This document shows, piece by piece, positions 19-14,150 of a stretch of DNA of 64,000 nucleotides (positions are counted from its first letter, which is position 1; every line of letters begins with the position of its first letter). Source of the DNA: Jiangella aurantiaca (GTDB lineage: Bacteria > Actinomycetota > Actinomycetes > Jiangellales > Jiangellaceae). The translations under genes were made by a program, and so were the position numbers. The stretch covers positions 186,001 through 250,000 of the forward strand of contig NZ_SMLB01000004.1 of assembly GCF_004349105.1 (NCBI RefSeq), written 5' to 3'. Below the pieces are notes generated by a model. That model did not search any database. It saw only the letters and a program-made list of their open reading frames with translations, and was not told the origin of the DNA.

Positions 19-654
19 GTGACGGTCGTCCTCGTCGACGATCACGCCATGTTCCGCACCGGCGTCCGCGCCGAGCTCGCGCAGGCCCCGTCCGTCGACG
101 TCGTCGGCGAGGCGGCCGACACCGCCGAGGCGGTCGCGGTCGTGCTCCGGACCAAGCCCGAGGTCGTGCTGCTCGACGTGCACCTTCCCGGCGGCGGTGG
201 CGCCGAGGTGATCCGCCAGGTGCACCCGAAGGAGCCCAGTGTGCGGTTCCTGGCGCTGTCGGTGTCCGACGCCGCCGAGGACGTCATCGGCACCATCCGC
301 GCCGGCGCCCGCGGCTACGTCACCAAGTCCATCACCGGCGACGACCTCGTCTCCGCCATCGGCCGGGTGGCCGACGGCGACGCCGTCTTCTCGCCCCGGC
401 TGGCCGGGTTCGTGCTCGACGCCTTCGCCGGCACCGAGGCGCCGTCCGTCGACGACGACCTCGACCGCCTCACCCAGCGCGAGCGCGAGGTGCTGCGGCT
501 GATCGCCCGCGGCTACGCGTACAAAGAGATCGCCAAGGAGCTGTTCATCTCGGTCAAGACGGTCGAGACGCACGTGTCGGCGGTGCTGCGCAAGCTGCAG
601 CTGTCCAACCGGTACGAGCTGACCCGGTGGGCGACCGACCGCCGCCTGGTCTGA
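19..654 (+). CDS. LuxR/NarL-type response regulator
   Basis: Cytoplasmic two-component response regulator, DNA-binding when phosphorylated. The N-terminal receiver domain (about residues 1-120) has the acidic pair D7/D8, phospho-acceptor D53 in LLDVHLP, the switch residue S81 and K103. The C-terminal LuxR-type HTH (about 151-211) carries LTQREREVLRLIARG and SVKTVETHV, the recognition-helix signature. At 211 aa it is full family length. The GTG at 19 gives a start exactly at the receiver beta-strand; the frame is also open to the window edge, so an upstream start or overlap with a partner histidine kinase outside the window cannot be excluded. Family assignment is firm; target genes are unknown. 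Confidence 0.93.
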   Translation: MTVVLVDDHAMFRTGVRAELAQAPSVDVVGEAADTAEAVAVVLRTKPEVVLLDVHLPGGGGAEVIRQVHPKEPSVRFLALSVSDAAEDVIGTIRAGARGYVTKSITGDDLVSAIGRVADGDAVFSPRLAGFVLDAFAGTEAPSVDDDLDRLTQREREVLRLIARGYAYKEIAKELFISVKTVETHVSAVLRKLQLSNRYELTRWATDRRLV

Positions 655-899
655 TCGACGACGATCGCCTGGCCACACTCGCCCGGGGAGCACCTCACTC
701 GCTCCGATGACCGCACCGGGACCGGATTTGCATGGTGTACGGCTCTGCGACGGTCGAGGTGTGCGCCAGACGCGTGACGATGTGACTTCTCCAGGAGCAG
801 CACGAGCCCGCGTGCCGCCGGACTCCCGGCACACATGCTGCAGATCCCCGGCCCGCGGTCGGCCCGTTCACGGCGTTCGACCGTTCTCGCGTCACTTCA

Positions 900-957
900 C
901 TAGGCGTCTTCCCGCTCCACCAGGAATGCATGGCTGGTAGGGCGGGAGAACGCCTAG
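900..957. repeat. Palindromic repeat copy A (hairpin, CATGC-type centre)
   Basis: Outer arms ctaggcgt and acgcctag pair perfectly; the inner arms (908-923 with 934-949) pair imperfectly around the centre gaatgcatgg. The 8-nt left end and the 15-nt core caccaggaatgcatg (918-932) recur at the same spacing at 63233-63265 near the other end of the window, so this is a dispersed element rather than a private terminator. Confidence 0.7.
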
Positions 958-973
958 CGAGGTGGACGAGGCC

Positions 974-991
974 TGCGATCGTGGTGACGCT
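974..991 (-). repeat. Copy of the agcgtcaccacgattgca repeat block
   Basis: The minus strand reads agcgtcaccacgatcgca, matching 17 of 18 positions of the block at 25789-25806 and 42591-42608. It lies 16 bp beyond hairpin copy A, so two sub-blocks of the same mosaic repeat family are adjacent here. Confidence 0.6.
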
Positions 992-1077
992 GGGGTGATC
1001 CTGATCGTGGCCCTGCTGCACCGGAGTACGACACGGCGTAGTAGGCTGCTTCCCGCCTCGACGCAGGAAGGGTGATC

Positions 1078-1434
1078 ATGGAGTTCGTCTACGACCTGGT
1101 GCTCGTGCTGCACTTCTTCGGCCTGGCCAGCCTGCTCGGCGGGATCATGGTCCAGCTGAGCGCCCGGGACGGCCGCGTCGTGAACATGGCGATGCTGCAC
1201 GGCGCGCTGACGCAGCTCGTCACCGGCGTGGCGATGGTCGGCATGGCCTCCGGGATCGATTCTCTCGACAAGGATGTCAACAACGCGAAGATCGGCGTGA
1301 AACTGGTCATCGTGCTGATCATCACCGCGCTTGCCTTCGCGAACCGGAAACGCACGACCATCGCCGACGGATTGTTCTTCGCCCTGTTCGGGTTGTCCGC
1401 GGCGAATGTCGTGATCGCCGTCTTCTGGAACTGA
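1078..1434 (+). CDS. Small integral membrane protein, 118 aa
   Basis: Hypothetical protein with about four hydrophobic helices: residues near 1-25 (FVYDLVLVLHFFGLASLLGG), 40-60, 75-90 (VKLVIVLIITALAFANR) and 97-117. The ATG at 1078 is preferred over the GTG at 1072 because aggaagg (1065-1071) sits 6 nt upstream. Compact four-helix proteins of this kind are common in actinomycetes, but no function can be read from the sequence. It appears monocistronic, about 85 bp before a separate secreted-protein gene. Confidence 0.75.
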   Translation: MEFVYDLVLVLHFFGLASLLGGIMVQLSARDGRVVNMAMLHGALTQLVTGVAMVGMASGIDSLDKDVNNAKIGVKLVIVLIITALAFANRKRTTIADGLFFALFGLSAANVVIAVFWN

Positions 1435-1519
1435 TCCCGGCGGCCCGGAGGGGGCGGTTCACGGATGCGTCGCCGTCGGTTAGGGTGACGGCAGCCGAGC
1501 CTGACTGGGAGGTCCGCGA

Positions 1520-1942
1520 GTGACGCCGATCCGGCGCCTGGCCGCCGCCGCGGCCGCGACGATTCTGACGAGTGTGCTGGTCGCGGGCGCGTCCCCGACG
1601 GCGTCCGCTGCCGAGCACGACGGCGCGTGCCAAGGCTTGGAGCTGTGCCTCTACTACAACTCCGGGCAGGCCGGCGCGCTGCACGACTTCCGCTACCGGG
1701 TGAGCGACTTCGCGCCGTACCGCTTCCTCGGCACTGGCACGGGCGCCGGTAGCCCGGTGAAGAACAATGCCGCGTCGGCGGCGAATCGCGATGGCTATTT
1801 CACCGCGCGCGTCTACTTCAATTCCGGTTATGCTGGCCCGGCTGACGACGTGCCGCCGTTGTCCGCGCGGAATCTCGGCGACACGTACAACGACAACGCA
1901 TCGTTCAACTGGTGCCACCAGCAGCCCCTGGTGTGCGGCTGA
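1520..1942 (+). CDS. Secreted I36-type peptidase inhibitor family protein
   Basis: 140-aa exported protein. A Tat/Sec-like signal peptide (basic MTPIRR, then an Ala-rich hydrophobic stretch ending near ASA, about residue 31) precedes a small domain. That domain has four Cys and the tandem motifs LCLYYNSGQAG and ARVYFNSGYAG, typical of the beta/gamma-crystallin-like inhibitor I36 family (Streptomyces SMI type). The family is known as extracellular metalloprotease inhibitors; inhibition by this protein is inference. GTG start with gggagg at 1507-1512. Only 24 bp separate it from the next lipoprotein gene, so co-transcription is possible. Confidence 0.8.
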   Translation: MTPIRRLAAAAAATILTSVLVAGASPTASAAEHDGACQGLELCLYYNSGQAGALHDFRYRVSDFAPYRFLGTGTGAGSPVKNNAASAANRDGYFTARVYFNSGYAGPADDVPPLSARNLGDTYNDNASFNWCHQQPLVCG

Positions 1943-1966
1943 CCGGTGGCCGCGAAAGGCCGTGGC

Positions 1967-2902
1967 ATGACCGCCCGTGTGCTCGTCCGTACCGCCGTCC
2001 TGCTCGCCCTGCCTGGAGCCGGGTGCGCGGCCGCGCCCGCCGACGTCGCCGTCGAGTCGCCGGGCGGGGGAGCCGCGGTGGCCGGGGCCGTGCCGGCGCG
2101 GGCTGCCGGGCCGGCGCAGGCGGCGGGGCTGACGCTGCCGCTCGACGCGTACGCGTTCAGCGCCGCCGAGGACCAGCTGCTCGGCCGGGCCGCTGCGGCG
2201 CACGTACGCGACTGCGCCGCGAGGCTGGGCCTCGACGCCGCGGCCGTCGACCCGCTGCCGTTCGGCACCGCCGCCGAGTCGGCATCGGCCGCGGCCGGCC
2301 GCCACGACCGCCGGTACGCCGTCGCCGACCCCGAGATCGCCGCCACGCACGGCTACCACCCGCCGTCCACCGTCGACGTGCGGCGCGAGTTCTACGAGGC
2401 GCACACCGACGCCGAGCTGGCGGTCCTGGTCGGCGTGACGGCCGGCGGCGCCCCGGCCGCGCGCGACGGCGTCCCCGAGGGCGGCTGCATCGGCGCGGCG
2501 GCACGCGCCACGGCGGTCGCCGACGAGGCTGCGCTGCGGGCCGGCCAGGACCTGGTCTCCGCCGTCCAGTCCGAGGCCTGGCACGCCGCACTCGCCGATC
2601 CTCGGGTGCTCGACGCGTTCGCGGCCTGGTCGGCGTGCATGGCCGACGCGGGGTATCGGTACGCCGCGCCCATGGACGCCAACGACGACCCGCGCTGGTG
2701 GACGTCCGAGACGGCCGGCCCCGAAGAGATCGCCACCGCCGTCGCCGACGTCGCCTGCAAGGAGTCCACCGGCCTGATCCCCGCCTGGTCCGCCGTCGAG
2801 GCCGACTACCAGGCCCGGTTCATTGCGGCCAACCAAGCGGAGCTGGACGCCTACCGCGCGCTGCTCGACCAGCAGGTGTCCGCCGTGTCCACGGCCAGGT
2901 GA
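1967..2902 (+). CDS. Putative lipoprotein, 311 aa, unknown function
   Basis: Starts MTARVLVRTAVLL and has a lipobox LPGAGC with Cys20, so it is probably a surface-anchored lipoprotein. The mature part is Ala-rich with about four further Cys (DC near residue 84, GGCIG, SACMAD and VACKES), which could form two disulfides outside the cell. Repeated 'D-C/A-C' spacing resembles other actinomycete secreted proteins with conserved Cys, but no named family is recognised. ATG 1967 is preferred over GTG 1946 since the signal peptide follows it directly. Its last 83 bp overlap, antisense, the end of the convergent membrane-protein gene. Confidence 0.7.
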   Translation: MTARVLVRTAVLLALPGAGCAAAPADVAVESPGGGAAVAGAVPARAAGPAQAAGLTLPLDAYAFSAAEDQLLGRAAAAHVRDCAARLGLDAAAVDPLPFGTAAESASAAAGRHDRRYAVADPEIAATHGYHPPSTVDVRREFYEAHTDAELAVLVGVTAGGAPAARDGVPEGGCIGAAARATAVADEAALRAGQDLVSAVQSEAWHAALADPRVLDAFAAWSACMADAGYRYAAPMDANDDPRWWTSETAGPEEIATAVADVACKESTGLIPAWSAVEADYQARFIAANQAELDAYRALLDQQVSAVSTAR

Positions 2903-3557
2903 TCAGGGCCCACACCGCGGCGATGAGCACCGTCTCGACCACCACGTACCAGGGCCAAGGACCGAACAGGTCGAGCACCGACGCCGAGTCCGGCTTGGCG
3001 TTGAGGAAGCCGTAGTTCGTGTCGGCCGCCACGTTGAACGTGAACACCGTCACCGCCCACACCGCCGTCGCCGTCACCGCCACTCGGTACGAGTCCCAGC
3101 CGGGCCGGATCCCCAGCCCCCACGTCAGGAAGATCGCCGCGACGACGGTCATGCCGTGCATCGACCAGTAGAGGATGAACGCGGGGTCGGGGAACTCAGC
3201 GTCGAGATCCGGGGTGAGGATCGGCTGGATGCTGAGGGTGATGCCCCAGTAGAACGTCAGCGCGGCCGACCACCGCCGGCGCGTCAGGAGCGCGTGGATC
3301 GCCGCCAGCCAGGCCAAGTCGCACAGCTGTATCGGCAACGAGAGGCCCACGTCGAAGCGGCCGGGCAGGTTGAAGTACACCTGCAGCGGCAGCGTCAGTG
3401 CCAGGAAGACGAGCGCGAACCCGGCGCTGAGCCGGTCCGCCCCGCGGGTGCCGCGGGCCGCGCGTCCCCGCCGCACCAGCCACCAGGCCAGAGCGGCCAG
3501 GACCACCAGTACGGCCACGTGGGAGGGGCCATACGGCGTGAAGGTGTCGCCCGGCAT
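2820..3557 (-). CDS. TIGR02206 (YwaF-like) integral membrane protein
   Basis: About 245 aa with six to seven transmembrane helices. Characteristic features are the PYGPSH opening, a LPIQLCDLAWLAA segment, and AFILYWSMHGMTVVAAIFLTWG; these match the conserved HxxQLC/LHLCD and H-rich helix pattern of the TIGR02206 family, whose function is unknown. Start taken at MPGDTFTPYG (3557); an alternative ATG lies five codons upstream at 3572. Its C-terminus (Arg/Pro-rich, low complexity) runs 83 bp into the 3' end of the opposite gene, which may mean the tail is unconserved. Confidence 0.8.
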   Translation of the reverse strand: MPGDTFTPYGPSHVAVLVVLAALAWWLVRRGRAARGTRGADRLSAGFALVFLALTLPLQVYFNLPGRFDVGLSLPIQLCDLAWLAAIHALLTRRRWSAALTFYWGITLSIQPILTPDLDAEFPDPAFILYWSMHGMTVVAAIFLTWGLGIRPGWDSYRVAVTATAVWAVTVFTFNVAADTNYGFLNAKPDSASVLDLFGPWPWYVVVETVLIAAVWALITWPWTRRTPAGRAARGRRPAPLGWPQ

Positions 3558-3726
3558 CGATACCGCTCCCACCCTGTACGGTTCCCGTCCGGCGCGAGGT
3601 CATGCGCGTGGGCAGCCGATCGCAGCCGCGTTCGTAAGCGTGTTCGGGCGGAGTGTGTCGGCGGTCGGGCATAGGCTGGGTGCGCCAGCGCCAAGCGAGT
3701 GAGAAGGCGAGTGTGACCCGCCGGCA

Positions 3727-6039
3727 ATGAGTGCCCTGTTCGACGACCTCACCCTGACCGAGGCGGCCCAGCCGAACAAGCCGGTCAAGCGGCGGTCTCG
3801 CGACCCCGAAGCGCTGCTCGGCGGCCTCAATGGGCCGCAGCGCGAGGCCGTGACCCACAAGGGGTCGCCGCTGCTCATCGTCGCCGGGGCGGGGTCGGGC
3901 AAGACGCGGGTGCTGACACGGCGCATCGCCTACCTGCTGGGTGAGCGCAACGCGCACCCGGGCTCCATTCTCGCCATCACGTTCACCAACAAGGCCGCCG
4001 GCGAGATGAAGGAGCGCGTCGCCGACCTCGTCGGGAAGCGCTCCGACATCATGTGGGTGTCCACGTTCCACTCCGCGTGCGTGCGCATCCTGCGGCGCGA
4101 GGCCAAGCACTTCGGCTACACCTCGTCGTTCTCCATCTACGACCAGGCCGACTCCCAGCGGCTGATGGCCATGGTGTGCCGCGAGCTCGACCTCGACCCG
4201 CGTCGCTACCAGCCGCGCCAGTTCAGCTACGCCATCAGCAACTTCAAGAACGAGCTGATCGACTACGAGACCGCGCTGGCCAGGGCCGACACCCACCACG
4301 AGAAGATGGTGGCCGAGGCGTACGAGCTGTACCAGCGCCGGCTCGCCGAGGCCAACGCGTTCGACTTCGACGACCTCATCATGACGACGGTGCACCTGCT
4401 GCAGGCGTTCCCCGACGTCGCGGAGAACTACCGGCGGCGGTTCCGGCACATCCTGGTCGACGAGTACCAGGACACCAACCATGCCCAGTACGTGCTGGTG
4501 CGCGAGCTGGTCGGCACCGGCGTCATCTCCGGAGAGGACGAGCCCGCGGTGCCGCCGGCCGAGCTGTGCGTGGTGGGCGACGCCGACCAGTCCATCTACG
4601 CGTTCCGCGGCGCCACCATCCGCAACATCCTCCAGTTCGAGGAGGACTACCCCGACACCCGGGTGATCCTGCTGGAGCAGAACTACCGCTCGACGCAGAC
4701 CATCCTGTCCGCCGCCAACGCCGTCATCGCGCGCAACCCCGGCCGCAAGCCGAAGCGGCTGTGGAGCGACAGCGGGGACGGCGCCAAGATCGTCGGATAC
4801 GTGGCCGACGACGAGCACGCCGAGGCGCAGTTCGTCGCCGACGAGATCGACCGGCTCACCGACGAGGGGCTGGTCAGGACCGGCGACGTCGCGGTGTTCT
4901 ACCGCACCAACGCCCAGTCCCGCGTGCTGGAGGAGATCTTCGTCCGGGTCGGCCTGCCCTACCGCGTCGTCGGCGGCACCCGGTTCTACGAGCGGCGCGA
5001 GATCCGCGACGCGCTGGCGTACCTGCGGTTCCTGGCCAACCCCGAAGACTCCGTGTCGCTGCGGCGCATCCTCAACGTCCCGAAGCGCGGCATCGGCGAC
5101 CGCGCCGAGGCCATGGTCGAGGCGCTGGCCCAGCGCGACCGGACGACGTTCTTCCAGGCGCTGCGCCGCGCGGCCGACGCGCCCGGCATCGCCACCCGCT
5201 CGGTCAACGCCATCGAGGGGTTCGTCGAACTGACCGACGAGCTGCGGGCGCTGGTCGACGACGGCGTCGGGCCGGCCGCCGTCCTCGAGGCGACGCTCGA
5301 CCGCACCGGGTACGTCGCGGAGCTGTCCGAGTCCGACGACCCGCAAGACGAGACCCGCCTCGACAACCTCCGCGAGCTGGTCGCCGTCGCCGGAGAGTAC
5401 GAGGCGAGCGAAGACTCCGACGGCTCGCTGTCCGGGTTCCTCGAGCAGGTCAGCCTGGTCGCCGACGCCGACGAGATCCCCGAGGGCGACGACCACGACG
5501 GCATGGTCACGCTGATGACGCTGCACACCGCCAAGGGCCTGGAATTCCCGGTGGTGTTCCTCACCGGCCTCGAGGACGGCGTCTTCCCGCACCAGCGCTC
5601 GCTCGGCGGCAACTCCCAAGAGCTCGAGGAGGAGCGCCGGCTCGCCTACGTGGGCATCACCCGGGCGCGCGAGCGGCTGTACCTGTCGCGGGCGTTGCTG
5701 CGCAGCGCGTGGGGATCGCCGGCGCACAACCCGGCATCGCGGTTCCTCGCCGAGATCCCCGACGAGCTGATCGACTGGCGCCGCACCGAGGCCGACCAGG
5801 TCAAGTGGAACACGCCGCCGCCACCGCGCCGGCAGCCGGTCAGTGGCCGGTCCAGCGGCGCCGGCAACCGGCCGGTCATCTCGCTGTCGCCCGGCGACCG
5901 CGTCACCCACGACGCGTTCGGCCTCGGCACTGTCGTCGCGACCAACGGCCAGGGTGAGCACGCGCAGGCCACCGTCGACTTCGGCGAGTCCGGGCTGAAG
6001 ACGCTGCTGCTGCGCTACGCCCCGGTCGAGAAGCTCTGA
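3727..6039 (+). CDS. pcrA: ATP-dependent DNA helicase PcrA/UvrD
   Basis: 770-aa superfamily 1A helicase, 3'-5' DNA unwinding in repair and replication restart. Visible motifs: Q-motif LNGPQREAV (about 34-42), Walker A AGAGSGKT (53-60), TFTNKAA, Walker B LVDEYQDTN (D245 E246), GDADQSIYAFRGA, LEQNYRS, VMTLHTAKGLEFP and AYVGITRARERL. The C-terminus has the Tudor-like RNA-polymerase-binding fold (DRVTHDAFGLGTVV...) that separates PcrA/UvrD from RecB-type helicases. Length fits the family. A second PcrA-type start context is not needed: ATG follows a GTGACCCGCCGGCA leader without a strong Shine-Dalgarno. Downstream is the palindrome-bracketed endonuclease cassette. Confidence 0.96.
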   Translation: MSALFDDLTLTEAAQPNKPVKRRSRDPEALLGGLNGPQREAVTHKGSPLLIVAGAGSGKTRVLTRRIAYLLGERNAHPGSILAITFTNKAAGEMKERVADLVGKRSDIMWVSTFHSACVRILRREAKHFGYTSSFSIYDQADSQRLMAMVCRELDLDPRRYQPRQFSYAISNFKNELIDYETALARADTHHEKMVAEAYELYQRRLAEANAFDFDDLIMTTVHLLQAFPDVAENYRRRFRHILVDEYQDTNHAQYVLVRELVGTGVISGEDEPAVPPAELCVVGDADQSIYAFRGATIRNILQFEEDYPDTRVILLEQNYRSTQTILSAANAVIARNPGRKPKRLWSDSGDGAKIVGYVADDEHAEAQFVADEIDRLTDEGLVRTGDVAVFYRTNAQSRVLEEIFVRVGLPYRVVGGTRFYERREIRDALAYLRFLANPEDSVSLRRILNVPKRGIGDRAEAMVEALAQRDRTTFFQALRRAADAPGIATRSVNAIEGFVELTDELRALVDDGVGPAAVLEATLDRTGYVAELSESDDPQDETRLDNLRELVAVAGEYEASEDSDGSLSGFLEQVSLVADADEIPEGDDHDGMVTLMTLHTAKGLEFPVVFLTGLEDGVFPHQRSLGGNSQELEEERRLAYVGITRARERLYLSRALLRSAWGSPAHNPASRFLAEIPDELIDWRRTEADQVKWNTPPPPRRQPVSGRSSGAGNRPVISLSPGDRVTHDAFGLGTVVATNGQGEHAQATVDFGESGLKTLLLRYAPVEKL

Positions 6040-10907: not shown

Positions 10908-11098
10908 GCTAGCTCCGCCGCAAGGGTCAGGTCCGTGGTCAATCTCACGTCTGACCTGTTCAGGGCATTGTTCGGGCCGTGACATCCCTCACTGAGGGTC
11001 TCCTAACAAACCGAAGATCTTGCTGTTCGGTGCAATGCTGGTGCAGTCCGGTTCGTCCTGTCGGTGAAGGGAGTACGGCCGGCGACGGGAGGAGAGCG

Positions 11099-11725
11099 AT
11101 GGTGCTCACCGCGAGCGACACGGCGGCGCTCCAGCAGCTCGCCCGCGACGAGCTGCCGGGACTGTACGCGCTCGCCCGGCGGCTCGCGGGGCGCAACGAT
11201 GCCGAGGACGTCGTGCAGGAGGCCCTGCTGCGGGCCTGCCAGGCGTTCGGTTCGCTCCGGGATCACCAGGCCGGCGCCCGATGGCTGCGGGTCATTCTCG
11301 CCAATGTCTGGCGTGACCGTGTCCGCAAGGACCTCCGCGCGCCTCGCGAGCTCCCGGTCGACGACGTCGAGCGGTTCTCGCTCTACCGGACGCTCGTCGA
11401 GGAGGACCCGTTCCCTTACTCGGACAGTCTTCACCTGGACTTCCTGAGTGCGTTCACCGATGACGACGTGGACACGGTTCTCGATCGGCTGCCACCTCGC
11501 TACCGTGCGCCGCTCGTCCTTCGTTACGTCGAGGGCTTCGCGACAGCGCAGATCGCCCGGATGCTCGAGCTGCCGCTCGGGACGGTCCTGTCGCAACTTC
11601 ATCGCGGCCGGAGGCTGTTCGAGCGGGAGATGTGGAACTACGCCGCCGAGTGCGGCCTCCTCCCTGATCAGGGCGGCGCCCGGGCCGGGGAACGCGAGGG
11701 AGGGGGTCCGAGGTGGAGCGCATGA
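11099..11725 (+). CDS. ECF-type RNA polymerase sigma factor
   Basis: 208 aa. Region 2 (about 12-80) includes LYALARRLAGRNDAEDVVQEALLRACQAF and WLRVILANVWRD; region 4 (about 135-190) has LDRLPPRYRAPLVLRYVEGFATAQIARMLELPLGTVLSQLHRGRRL, so both core-binding and -35-recognition domains are intact. ATG 11099 is chosen over upstream in-frame starts because gggaggag (11087-11094) precedes it and homology begins there. The 3' end overlaps the next gene by 13 bp, as expected for a sigma/anti-sigma pair. It probably controls the methyltransferase cluster and itself. Confidence 0.92.
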   Translation: MVLTASDTAALQQLARDELPGLYALARRLAGRNDAEDVVQEALLRACQAFGSLRDHQAGARWLRVILANVWRDRVRKDLRAPRELPVDDVERFSLYRTLVEEDPFPYSDSLHLDFLSAFTDDDVDTVLDRLPPRYRAPLVLRYVEGFATAQIARMLELPLGTVLSQLHRGRRLFEREMWNYAAECGLLPDQGGARAGEREGGGPRWSA

Positions 11726-11958
11726 TCAGCTGCGGTGAGGCCGTCCGGCACCTCTGGGAGTTCCTCGATCGGGGACTGTCTGACGAGAACCAGCGCGCGG
11801 TCGAAGAGCATCTGGCCTGGTGCGTTCGGTGCTGCGGTGAGCTGGAGTTCGCCCGGAGCCTGCGGCAGCTGCTGCGGACGACGGCCGAGGGCGGGGTCCC
11901 CGACGATGTCCGGAACCGGCTGTCGCGGTTCATCGACGACCTCGATCACATCGACTGA
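11713..11958 (+). CDS. ZAS-type (zf-HC2) anti-sigma factor, 81 aa
   Basis: Small soluble protein with the zinc-anti-sigma motif H33-x3-C37-x2-C40 and an upstream C7, followed by C41; no transmembrane helix. RsrA-type ZAS proteins release their sigma factor when zinc-ligating thiols are oxidised or modified; the ligand set here supports a thiol-sensing role, by inference. GTG start at 11713 (an ATG three codons later, 11722, is possible); overlap with the sigma gene implies coupled translation. 20 bp separate it from the first methyltransferase. Confidence 0.85.
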   Translation: MERMISCGEAVRHLWEFLDRGLSDENQRAVEEHLAWCVRCCGELEFARSLRQLLRTTAEGGVPDDVRNRLSRFIDDLDHID

Positions 11959-11978
11959 GCCGTGGGGCCCATGGAGAG

Positions 11979-12782
11979 ATGAACGGCGACCTGATGTTCC
12001 AGGAGGAGATCCGGGCCAAGGTCCGCGACGCCTACGGTGCCATCCCCGCCGGGGCCGGACGGGCCATGGCCCAGCGGTTCTATTCGGATGAGGAGTTGTC
12101 CTCGATCCCCGAGCGTGCGGTCGACTGGGCGCTCGGCGTCGGGAACCCCGTCCGGTACGCCGGACTGTCGCCGGGTGACGTCGTGCTCGACGTGGGGTGC
12201 GGCGGAGGCATCGACACAGTCCTCGCGGCCCGTCGCGTCGGTCCGGCCGGCCGGGTCATCGGGTTGGACATGCTCGCGGAGATGTGCGACCGGGCCCGCG
12301 AAACGGCGGAGGAGGCGGGCGTCGGAGCGTCGTGTGAGTTCACGACCGGTCTGATGGAAGACATGCCGCTGCCCGACGCCTCGGTGGACGTCGTCGTGTC
12401 GAACGGGGTCATCAACCTCTCGCCCCGCAAGAGCCGCGTCCTCGCGGAGATCGTCCGCGTGCTGGTCCCGGGTGGACGTCTCTGCGTCGCCGACCTGACG
12501 GTCGAGGACGACCTGCCGGCCGAGGTGCTCACCAGTGACGCCGCGTGGGCCGGGTGCATCTCCGGCGCCCTGTCCGAGCGCGTGTTCGCGAAGAAGCTGG
12601 ATCACGCCGGACTGGTCGGCGTCGAGATGAACGAGCAGGTCCCGTTCGGCCTCGCCGACGTAGCGCTGTATCCGTTGTTCACTCCGGCGGTGCTGGAGCT
12701 CATGGCGCGCGTCATCCCCGAGGGACGACGCGACCGCGTGGCCGTCGGGCTGATCGTCCGCGCCGCCAAGCCGGAGTCCTGA
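11979..12782 (+). CDS. SAM-dependent methyltransferase, ArsM-like, 267 aa
   Basis: Class I methyltransferase. Motif I VLDVGCGGG (69-77), an acidic motif II in VIGLDM, and the post-motif VSNGVINLSPRK are visible. The surrounding layout (FYSDEELSSIPERAV, then xGxGNP, then AGCISGAL) is that of the arsenite methyltransferase ArsM family. However, the conserved Cys of LGCGNP is Val here (ALGVGNP, V54), while the second (C193 in AGCISGAL) remains, so arsenite as substrate is doubtful. Second gene downstream of the sigma factor; likely part of its regulon. Confidence 0.8.
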   Translation: MNGDLMFQEEIRAKVRDAYGAIPAGAGRAMAQRFYSDEELSSIPERAVDWALGVGNPVRYAGLSPGDVVLDVGCGGGIDTVLAARRVGPAGRVIGLDMLAEMCDRARETAEEAGVGASCEFTTGLMEDMPLPDASVDVVVSNGVINLSPRKSRVLAEIVRVLVPGGRLCVADLTVEDDLPAEVLTSDAAWAGCISGALSERVFAKKLDHAGLVGVEMNEQVPFGLADVALYPLFTPAVLELMARVIPEGRRDRVAVGLIVRAAKPES

Positions 12783-12863
12783 ACCGCGCGGGACGGGCAC
12801 GCAATATCCGCGCCGTCCGAACGTCCTCCCCAGCGAAGGATCAGTACGAAGGGGGAGGTCGTC

Positions 12864-13355
12864 ATGGCGACGGAAACGATGCGGACGGGAGTTCACCGCC
12901 AGGCACGAGTCGGGTCGGGGCTGATGGCGCTGGCGGGGCTCGGGTTCATCGGATACGGGGTGATCTTCTTCATCCTCAACTTCTCCGACCAGTTCCTCGA
13001 ACTCGGCATCTCCACCGACGAGGTTCCGGTCACGCGTGACCAGATCAAGGAGTTCAGCCCGGAGCTGTTCGAGTACATCTCGCACCTGCACATCGCGATC
13101 GCCGGCTTCCTGATCGCGCTGGGCGTGGCGGTGGCAGCACTGTCATGGGTGGGTGTGGGAAGCGGGCAGCGCTGGGCGTGGTGGACCGCTGTGGCGTCAG
13201 CGGTGCTGGCCGTCGGCATCGCCCTTCCCGCGCACTACCCCAACGACTTCGACACGATCGAGCACCTCGGCCTCATCTACCTGGCGGTCGCGATCTTCGT
13301 CGTCGGCGCCGTGCTCACCCTGCGGGTCGCGGTGCCACGTCCGGGCGCACACTGA
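12864..13355 (+). CDS. Four-helix membrane protein, 163 aa
   Basis: Hypothetical protein with four predicted helices (about 18-42, 72-92, 100-118, 133-155). A charged external or internal loop after helix 1 holds STDEVPVTRDQIKEFSPELFEYISHLHIA; helix 3 is followed by ALPAHYPNDFDTIEHLG. The conserved-looking HLH and H of AHYPND could bind a metal or heme, but this is speculation. Strong ribosome site gggggagg (12849-12856). It lies between two related methyltransferase genes, suggesting a shared process at the membrane. Confidence 0.8.
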   Translation: MATETMRTGVHRQARVGSGLMALAGLGFIGYGVIFFILNFSDQFLELGISTDEVPVTRDQIKEFSPELFEYISHLHIAIAGFLIALGVAVAALSWVGVGSGQRWAWWTAVASAVLAVGIALPAHYPNDFDTIEHLGLIYLAVAIFVVGAVLTLRVAVPRPGAH

Positions 13356-13373
13356 CAGGGAAGGGGACCAGCC

Positions 13374-14150
13374 GTGAGCACGATGCTCACCGTCGATCCA
13401 GGACAGCTCCGGGCCTCGGTCACGGAGAAGTACGCCGAGTTGGCGCGGCACCCGGCGGGCGGGTTCCACTTCCACACGGGCCGGCGGCTCGCCAGGCTCC
13501 TGGACTACGACGCCGCACTGGTCGAGTCGCTGCCCGACCGCGCGGTCGAGTCCTTCGCCGGTGTGGCCAACCCGTTCTCGCTCGGGCCGCTCGGTCAGGG
13601 CGAGCACGTCGTCGACATCGGTTCAGGCGGCGGCTTCGACACCTTCGTCGCCGCCTGTCTCGTCGGCGCCGACGGCCACGTGGTGGGCGTGGACATGACG
13701 CCCGCCATGCTGGCCAAGTCGCGCGAGACCGCGCGCCTCATGGCGTTCGGCCAGGTCGAGTTCCGCGAGGGGCTCGCCGAAGGATTGCCGGTCGCCGACG
13801 GCTGGGCGGACGTCGTCATCTCCAACGGCGTGTTCAATCTCGTCGCCGACAAGACGCTGGCCCTGGCGGAGGCCTTCCGGATTCTGCGGCCGGGCGGCCG
13901 GTTGCGGATCGCCGACATCGCTCTCGGGCGGCCAGTACCAGCGGCGGCGGCCTGCTCGATCGACCTCTGGACCGACTGCATCGCGGGCGGGTTGTCCGTC
14001 GACGACTGGCGGGGCCTGCTGACGACCGCCGGCTTCGCCGACATCCGAGTCGGGCCGGCGGTCGACACCTTCGGTGGTGCACCGGGGGAGCGCAACGCCC
14101 GCCGGTACGAGGTCTTCGGCTATCCGTTCGCCGCGCGCAAGCCGGGCTGA
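13374..14150 (+). CDS. SAM-dependent methyltransferase, second ArsM-like paralogue, 258 aa
   Basis: Class I methyltransferase with motif I VVDIGSGGG (79-87), VVGVDMTPAML and VVISNGVFNLVADK. The N-terminus has HTGRRLARLLDYD and ESFAGVANPF, and the C-terminal half has TDCIAGGLS (C202), equivalent to the CxxGAL segment of the first methyltransferase. Again the Cys preceding the GNP/ANP motif is absent. Substrate unknown. GTG 13374 has aaggggacc nearby; ATG 13383 is an alternative. Only 18 bp follow the membrane-protein gene, so the five genes 11099-14150 read as one operon. Confidence 0.8.
   Translation: MSTMLTVDPGQLRASVTEKYAELARHPAGGFHFHTGRRLARLLDYDAALVESLPDRAVESFAGVANPFSLGPLGQGEHVVDIGSGGGFDTFVAACLVGADGHVVGVDMTPAMLAKSRETARLMAFGQVEFREGLAEGLPVADGWADVVISNGVFNLVADKTLALAEAFRILRPGGRLRIADIALGRPVPAAAACSIDLWTDCIAGGLSVDDWRGLLTTAGFADIRVGPAVDTFGGAPGERNARRYEVFGYPFAARKPG

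Follow-up and report, generated by a model that had tools for sequence, protein, structure and literature searches.

What would a bacterium do with two relatives of the arsenite methyltransferases, encoded behind a thiol-type sigma factor switch, if each of them holds a single one of three cysteines of ArsM? The question is raised by a stretch of 64,000 nucleotides from Jiangella aurantiaca (contig NZ_SMLB01000004.1, positions 186,001 to 250,000), referred to here as the window, in which a five-gene operon encodes an extracytoplasmic function (ECF) sigma factor, a zinc-binding anti-sigma factor of the ZAS type, the methyltransferases MT1 and MT2 and, between the latter, a membrane protein (MEM). 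The operon most likely belongs to a thiol-responsive, self-activating stress regulon, whose methyltransferases would hold a soft substrate, of the sulfur, selenium or metalloid type, on a single cysteine or selenocysteine and methylate it. The original prediction had described five tightly packed genes at positions 11099-14150, and the operon is real, with these coordinates and with all genes on the plus strand. Its further claims of ECF/ZAS control, of a four-helix membrane protein between the methyltransferases and of a likeness to arsenite methyltransferases are also borne out by the sequence. Aspects that go beyond it are the retention of the ArsM cysteine C224, the in-frame TGA codons with a hairpin of the selenocysteine insertion sequence (SECIS) type in relatives of both enzymes, an OsmC partner, and a trio of genes in haloarchaea.

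The cysteines of MT1 and MT2

Both enzymes are placed near ArsM by searches against NCBIfam and PDB, and within the broad Methyltransf_11/UbiE superfamily by Pfam. They resemble ArsM/AS3MT (NF008823; PDB 5evj, 5eg5, 4fr0) over most of their length as methyltransferases dependent on S-adenosylmethionine (SAM), with the SAM-binding glycine-rich motif (aligned to 5evj and 5eg5) and an equivalent of C224 in place. Their scores against NF008823, however, are 220.7 bits for MT1 and 200.4 bits for MT2, below the cut-off of 263, and six relatives range from 194.9 to 236.7 bits. The predicted structure of MT1, with a mean predicted local distance difference test score (pLDDT) of 43.1 from a three-row alignment, is too poor for use.

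The residues that set the two enzymes apart from ArsM come from an alignment of 24 MT1, 13 MT2, seven outside relatives and eight ordinary ArsM sequences, the last being the best-scoring ones fetched. An MT1 fragment (locus L095) and a small N-terminal piece of MT1 (L090) were excluded from the MT1 alignment, as was from the MT2 set a gene in two pieces of less than 200 bits (L079); L091 comes from the same genome as L013 and was also excluded, and G022 and G044 are one genome. At the positions equivalent to 72, 174 and 224 of CmArsM, all eight ordinary ArsM sequences have C, C and C, whereas window MT1 and MT2 have V, G and C, as do the seven outside relatives. Position 72 of MT1 is V in 21 sequences, L in one, T in one and a gap in one, and in MT2 it is V (nine sequences) or I (four); position 174 is G, and position 224 either C or U (selenocysteine), in all 24 MT1 and all 13 MT2. 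The cysteine reported earlier as missing beside the GNP motif is indeed replaced by V in both window enzymes, an account that was incomplete in that the C174 equivalent has also gone and that of C224 is retained. According to PMC5552862, C72, C174 and C224 are conserved among 343 ArsM sequences, a support that is partly circular because a sequence entered that sample only if three or more of the four ArsM cysteines were present.

This pattern bears on a first alternative, in which MT1 and MT2 serve metal(loid) detoxification. Their methyl acceptor would be a monothiol-bound arsenical, mercury, tellurium or similar, to which the protein contributes a single ligand, the cysteine or selenocysteine, and a low-molecular-weight thiol the rest. 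That the nearest models and structures are those of ArsM speaks in its favour, as do the good matches, though below cut-off, to three ArsM-like selenoprotein families discussed below. Against it, in all MT1, MT2 and outside relatives examined the C72 equivalent is other than cysteine and the C174 equivalent is glycine, and the eight ordinary ArsM sequences keep both cysteines; the conservation reported in PMC5552862 counts on the same side, within the limit just given. The alternative is considered unlikely. The earlier suggestion of an unfamiliar substrate stands insofar as the two lost cysteines cast doubt on plain arsenite.

A second alternative sees in MT1 and MT2 ordinary methyltransferases of small molecules, quinones or lipids, in which the cysteine or selenocysteine is a redox switch instead of a substrate ligand and OsmC resets the switch. 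Membership of both enzymes in the Methyltransf_11/UbiE superfamily agrees with this, and so does a regulator that is redox-type by motif. The residue in question nevertheless occupies an arsenic-ligand position of ArsM, and it would presumably be costly for both enzymes to employ selenocysteine as no more than a switch. This explanation is quite improbable. From the residue pattern, which is plain in the alignment, we infer instead that MT1 and MT2 would use SAM and a single reactive cysteine (selenocysteine in most of the sampled relatives) to hold and methylate a soft substrate. Such lone-chalcogen methyltransferase chemistry is likely for both.

The two enzymes are not products of a recent duplication, since they lie on opposite sides of a branch with support of 100/99 in an unrooted tree of ArsM-like proteins built without the three cysteine columns. 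MT2 groups with haloarchaeal and Chelatococcus proteins and MT1 with ordinary ArsM, so "paralogous", as the two had been called, applies only loosely. The split implies that either the two cysteine losses occurred twice or the three-cysteine form arose later. The Chelatococcus protein, which joins MT2 on a long branch, is encoded on the alphaproteobacterial plasmid pCO-6, where genes for a sigma-70 factor, a zf-HC2 protein and the ArsM-like methyltransferase follow each other in the window order (L103, 5202-6816).

Probable selenocysteine in the relatives

The key role assigned to the third cysteine is based on the relatives that carry an in-frame TGA at its codon. With stops read through, the MT1 family was found in 22 of 396 sampled genomes of the phylum, the window genome included, giving 23 matches of at least 270 bits; the next match below them is an ordinary ArsM at 217 bits. 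One TGA each is present in 18 of these 23 matches, and ordinary ArsM has no stop among the matches listed. When Jiangella asiatica is added (n = 24), the C224 position is the sole internal TGA column of MT1, with 18 U and 6 C, and MT2 (n = 13) again has one internal column, with 9 U and 4 C at the same equivalent position. Selenocysteine is almost certainly what these in-frame TGA codons would encode in the TGA-bearing relatives.

Could they instead end translation, have been reassigned or stem from sequencing errors? Several carrier genomes are incomplete, an Rfam scan of two loci (L014 and L023, one TGA locus among them) gave no SECIS match, and one TGA stretch, folded as a single sequence, showed nothing out of the ordinary (z -0.04), the hairpin becoming visible only by comparing sequences. 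On the other side, the codon is confined to one internal column across 27 genes from the two families, where it faces cysteine without exception, and is followed by a hairpin in every case. All 18 MT1 copies with TGA have a downstream stem of 7-9 bp with the loop CGUGN or GGUGC, and all nine such MT2 copies have a stem of 7-8 bp, with the loop CGUGY in eight and UGGAA in one. The bacterial SECIS (bSECIS) model, as given in PMC13188914, calls for a loop of 3-9 nt with G in its first two positions, a stem of at least 4 bp and a spacing of 16-37 nt. A free search for stems of at least 7 bp that fit its loop, stem and spacing criteria recovered the hairpin in 27/27 TGA copies versus 2/10 cysteine copies (p = 1.2e-6 by Fisher's test, with no correction for relatedness), in none of the seven outside relatives, and in 14-21% of resampled MT1/MT2 stretches. 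Covariation is weak in MT1 because the hairpin is nearly invariant (one covarying pair, with 81 of 500 shuffles as good), a point that again suits the alternative; in MT2 there are two covarying pairs, and the combined score of pairing and covariation exceeds all 500 shuffles.

The decoding machinery was also surveyed. Of the 17 genomes whose MT1 carries the TGA, 15 have a SelB that scores over the cut-off, compared with a background of 212 in 396 genomes; one of the remaining two has a match broken over two frames (KatS3mg013, L014) and the other a partial match. At a threshold of 60 bits, chosen by the authors (weak matches occur in all genomes and controls), tRNA-Sec is found in 13 of the 17 and missing from four, which leaves the non-selenocysteine explanation a little room. 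Weighed together, that explanation is extremely improbable. Genomes with a cysteine-type MT1 may also have SelB (G248, G140 and G097), and one of these, G140, has cysteine in MT1 and TGA in MT2.

Some further features of the TGA-bearing loci were observed. In the hot-spring metagenome-assembled genome KatS3mg013, the MT1 contig has a selA-like gene (judged by eye) followed by the selB match in two frames (L023, about 260-4205). Another genome has two separate sigma/anti-sigma/MT1 loci (L078 and L079), both with TGA, the second of them with MT2 in two pieces. In MT2, seven residues after the C224 equivalent, eight of nine TGA copies encode LPCAGW, with a second cysteine specified by a codon within the SECIS loop; three of the four cysteine-type copies are without this second cysteine, and J. 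asiatica has one.

Selenocysteine in a UxxG motif is listed in PMC13188914 for other ArsM-like families, namely NF041537 (ArsM/AhpD), NF041536 (ArsM/DUF2284) and NF047649 (MTase/UXPK-star), and U-x-x-G is likewise present at the site in MT1 and MT2 of the relatives. The position of the selenocysteine is therefore not new in itself, and the shared motif fits the metal(loid) alternative. MT1 and MT2 differ from these families in that they score far under the cut-offs (460-575), are matched over the methyltransferase part only and, in the window, are two stand-alone proteins adjoining a sigma factor. MT2 comes closest to NF041537, with 244.3 bits against a cut-off of 510, in a match that stops at profile position 227 of 345; MT2 is without the fused AhpD domain of that family. 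Among titles and abstract openings, no published description of the MT1/MT2 subgroup, its pairing or its control was found, although the TGA forms may have been published before.

In Jiangella aurantiaca itself, both codons are TGC. The best SelB match in its genome reaches 210.1 bits (cut-off 242.25) and the best tRNA-Sec match 42.2 (gathering threshold 47), and the idea that its own methyltransferases are selenoproteins was rejected on the cysteine codons and on the absence of a SelB over cut-off.

The switch and its promoter

The sigma factor passes the superfamily model TIGR02937 and is under the cut-off of every other model in the 25 listed matches to NCBIfam, including TIGR02947 (SigH_actino; 98.5 bits, cut-off 251.55). 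The ZAS motif, C-x25..27-H-x3-C-x2-C-C, is present in 25/25 anti-sigma sequences, the window one included. As in the SigR/RsrA system of actinobacteria, an ECF sigma factor is paired with a small ZAS anti-sigma factor, here through an ATGA overlap of the genes, and the Cys/His spacing of the window protein resembles that of RsrA. An RsrA orthologue was nonetheless rejected on score, with 49.1 bits against the cut-off of 62.5 for TIGR03988 (RsrA), and a separate RsrA above that cut-off (87.1 bits) is encoded elsewhere in the window genome. The promoter differs as well: that of SigR has the consensus GGAAT-N18/19-GTT, and the window promoter reads TGCAAT-N17-CGTC.

This sequence is the sole mismatch-free match in the 64-kb window. 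A shared -35/-10 motif had been suggested as a check, and a count of two-block words upstream of 24 sigma genes does give one, with TGCAA-N18-CGTC as top pair (the sigma gene of L081, cut by the contig, was excluded). The wider pattern TGCAA-N17..19-CGTC lies upstream of 15 of the 24 sigma genes, compared with a mean of 0.07 and a maximum of two in 1000 rounds of resampling. The sigma genes are the discovery set, and the MT2, OsmC and MEM genes, whose divergent members partly share the sigma intergenic DNA, serve as tests; the pattern is found upstream of 6/13 MT2, 3/7 OsmC and 6/17 MEM hits, the last being 6/11 in loci with a sigma gene and 0/6 in loci without one. It is missing before MT1 (0/24) and the anti-sigma gene (0/25), as expected for genes inside an operon. 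Searched over the whole genome, TGCAAT-N17-CGTCY has two matches in the 7-Mb genome of J. asiatica (G008), one before the sigma gene and one, with the full TGCAAT-N17-CGTC, before MEM. The window genome also has two, one of them before the sigma gene; the other (contig C22) adjoins an apparent LacI-type regulator and a sugar-binding protein, judged by eye, and was set aside as looking like chance. The backward pattern, used as control, has one match in the window genome and none in J. asiatica.

The ECF/ZAS operon is very probably autoregulated. Oxidation, persulfidation or binding of a soft metal at the anti-sigma cysteines would, to judge by the ZAS motif, free the sigma factor, which would then, as the conserved motif suggests, drive the operon that encodes it through TGCAAT-N17-CGTC promoters, as well as separate MT2, MEM and OsmC units in relatives. 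The features of the operon are collected in Table 1. Its genes are separated by 20 bases (anti-sigma/MT1), 81 bases (MT1/MEM) and 18 bases (MEM/MT2), and the first two overlap; ATG 11722, which gives the ATGA overlap with the sigma stop codon, is a likelier anti-sigma start than the alternative GTG 11713. Both flanks are on the opposite strand, with an sdh-like operon on the left and a glycosyltransferase on the right (translations judged by eye).

Table 1. Features of the five-gene operon and its promoters in the Jiangella aurantiaca window
Feature	Position	Strand	Remarks
Promoter motif TGCAAT-N17-CGTC	11031-11057	+	41 bases 5' of the sigma start codon
ECF sigma factor (SIG)	11099-11725	+	Sigma70_r2/r4 domains: PF04542, 42.3 bits; PF08281, 56.2 bits
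Zinc-binding ZAS anti-sigma factor	11722-11958	+	zf-HC2, 38.4 bits; nearest anti-sigma model RsrA, below its cut-off
MT1, ArsM-like SAM methyltransferase	11979-12782	+	one of three ArsM cysteines, C193 (C224 equivalent)
MT1 Cys193 codon, TGC	12555-12557	+	TGA in 18/24 MT1 sequences
Possible weak second promoter CGCAAT-N16-CGTC, before MEM	12800-12825	+	spotted by eye, without chance estimate
MEM, four-helix membrane protein, unnamed family	12864-13355	+	four transmembrane peaks in hydropathy
MT2, second ArsM-like methyltransferase, GTG start	13374-14150	+	same single ArsM cysteine as MT1
MT2 C224-equivalent Cys codon, TGC	13977-13979	+	TGA in 9/13 MT2 sequences

Gene neighbourhoods and the candidate substrate

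Sigma, anti-sigma and MT1 genes are adjacent on one strand in all 24 fetched MT1 loci, the window not counted, and the grouping is thus not due to chance. Conservation of gene order beyond this strain holds for this core; all five genes in the same order and orientation were found only in the window genome and J. asiatica, whose MEM is 83% identical to that of the window. The 24 loci also carry MT2 (13), MEM (9) or OsmC (7), with any of the three in 21. Jiangella probably received MT1 horizontally, given that a sample of 393 genomes from the class has MT1 in two, both of them Jiangella, while 12 genomes of the sample belong to Jiangella.

MEM matches no Pfam or NCBIfam family over cut-off, and its predicted structure (mean pLDDT 59.6, three-row alignment) is too poor for use. 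In an alignment of 21 sequences from Actinomycetota and haloarchaea, from which the MEM of L081 (in two pieces) was excluded, H74, H124, H134 and Y139 are among the positions identical in all. Its contexts are the circumstantial reason for preferring sulfur or selenium to arsenic. In three of six actinobacterial loci that have MEM and no sigma gene (L094, L096 and L097, which are also without a methyltransferase gene), MEM lies near an ArsR-type regulator, a metallo-beta-lactamase-fold protein and a major facilitator superfamily (MFS) transporter; two of these (L096 and L097) also have an OsmC-like protein, and the ArsR-type regulator of L097, the only one scanned whole, has a rhodanese domain. 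On an Arthrobacter plasmid MEM adjoins an ArsR/SmtB regulator.

OsmC-like (seleno)proteins (NF041052/PF02566) are a known kind of protein, and their likeness to this system consists in the OsmC genes of 7/24 actinobacterial loci and in those that adjoin MT2-like genes in haloarchaea; the difference is that the module OsmC scores 35.7 bits against the NF041052 cut-off of 95 and is absent from the Jiangella operon. A contiguous OsmC-MT2-MEM trio is found on haloarchaeal plasmids (L105, 3547-5435; L106, 3551-5447; L110, 3599-5435), with MEM annotated as 'hypothetical protein', and an annotated organomercurial lyase gene, merB (L110, 7514-8059), stands about 2 kb from one of the trios. OsmC-MT2 pairs without MEM occur in three further haloarchaeal places, one of them on the record with the merB-adjacent trio. 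Of the six haloarchaeal OsmC proteins from trios and pairs, three score well, at 136-149 bits, against the OsmC of the actinobacterial module.

The neighbour survey covered 89 of 181 predicted neighbouring open reading frames (ORFs). Among the first 25 listed of the 75 Pfam families matched by these 89 proteins there is no arsenic gene family, which may speak against metal(loid) detoxification, an explanation that merB near one trio would in turn support. DsrE-like proteins, counted here towards the link to sulfur, make up two of the 89, one of them in L078, and a relative adjoins MT2 in L080. A cysteine-rich protein of 63 amino acids is encoded near sigma and MEM genes in three loci (L071, 1906-2094, and also L072 and L073); that of L071 matches neither a Pfam nor an NCBIfam model at 0.001.

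The substrate handled by the lone cysteine or selenocysteine would be a reactive sulfur or selenium species, e.g., sulfane sulfur or selenide captured on that residue, with OsmC perhaps reducing the enzyme or product and MEM handling a step on the membrane side. That it is sulfur or selenium rather than another soft substrate is possible rather than probable. The overall explanation favoured here, namely a thiol-responsive, self-activating regulon of lone-cysteine or lone-selenocysteine methyltransferases with a reactive sulfur or selenium species as the most likely substrate, may quite possibly be right and is proposed tentatively.

Several observations weigh against it. Gene neighbourhood, mostly that of MEM, is the sole source of the link to sulfur, and MEM occurs without a methyltransferase or OsmC in L089, L092 and L093 and in the haloarchaeal L108 and L109. 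The metallo-beta-lactamase-fold neighbour is best matched by GloB (90.7 bits, cut-off 200.8) and weakly by the sulfur dioxygenase Blh (68.3 bits, cut-off 625), and the other three haloarchaeal OsmC proteins match the module OsmC weakly (18-23 bits); these two findings take some weight from the favoured reading and from the dual-selenoprotein reading given below, and add slightly to the metal(loid) alternative. The merB gene near one haloarchaeal trio would fit mercury as well. In Jiangella no selenocysteine is involved, and OsmC is not in the operon, its nearest homologue being encoded elsewhere in the genome. As for the promoter, nine of the 24 sigma upstream regions are without the pattern, some matches are distant from the start codon or without the T of TGCAAT (L075), and the random control covers the sigma set only. 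The Jiangella OsmC that is likest to the module OsmC (124 bits) lies on contig C25 (L127, 5222-5860) and adjoins a gene that looks, by eye, dependent on flavin adenine dinucleotide (FAD).

The system is a combination of known kinds of parts: an ECF/ZAS switch, an ArsM-like enzyme and a selenoprotein. A more far-reaching reading would join two ArsM-like lineages, each with one catalytic chalcogen (selenocysteine in most of the sampled carriers), to OsmC and MEM under one sigma factor as a dual-selenoprotein pathway of sulfur or selenium methylation, of which Jiangella would have the cysteine version and haloarchaea would share the OsmC-MT2-MEM half; this is doubtful at present. The residue pattern, the exchange of selenocysteine and cysteine, and the shared promoter give a means to separate the MT1/MT2 group from ArsM, at a time when the MT2-like genes in the annotated plasmid records opened are labelled only 'methyltransferase domain-containing protein'. 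Ordinary gene calling likely truncates both enzymes in selenocysteine carriers at their in-frame TGA codons, as the ORF listing did with MT1 in L014. Jiangella offers a host genus with the cysteine-containing form in which the substrate may be sought and, should this be sulfur or selenium, the regulon would represent a new detoxification route.

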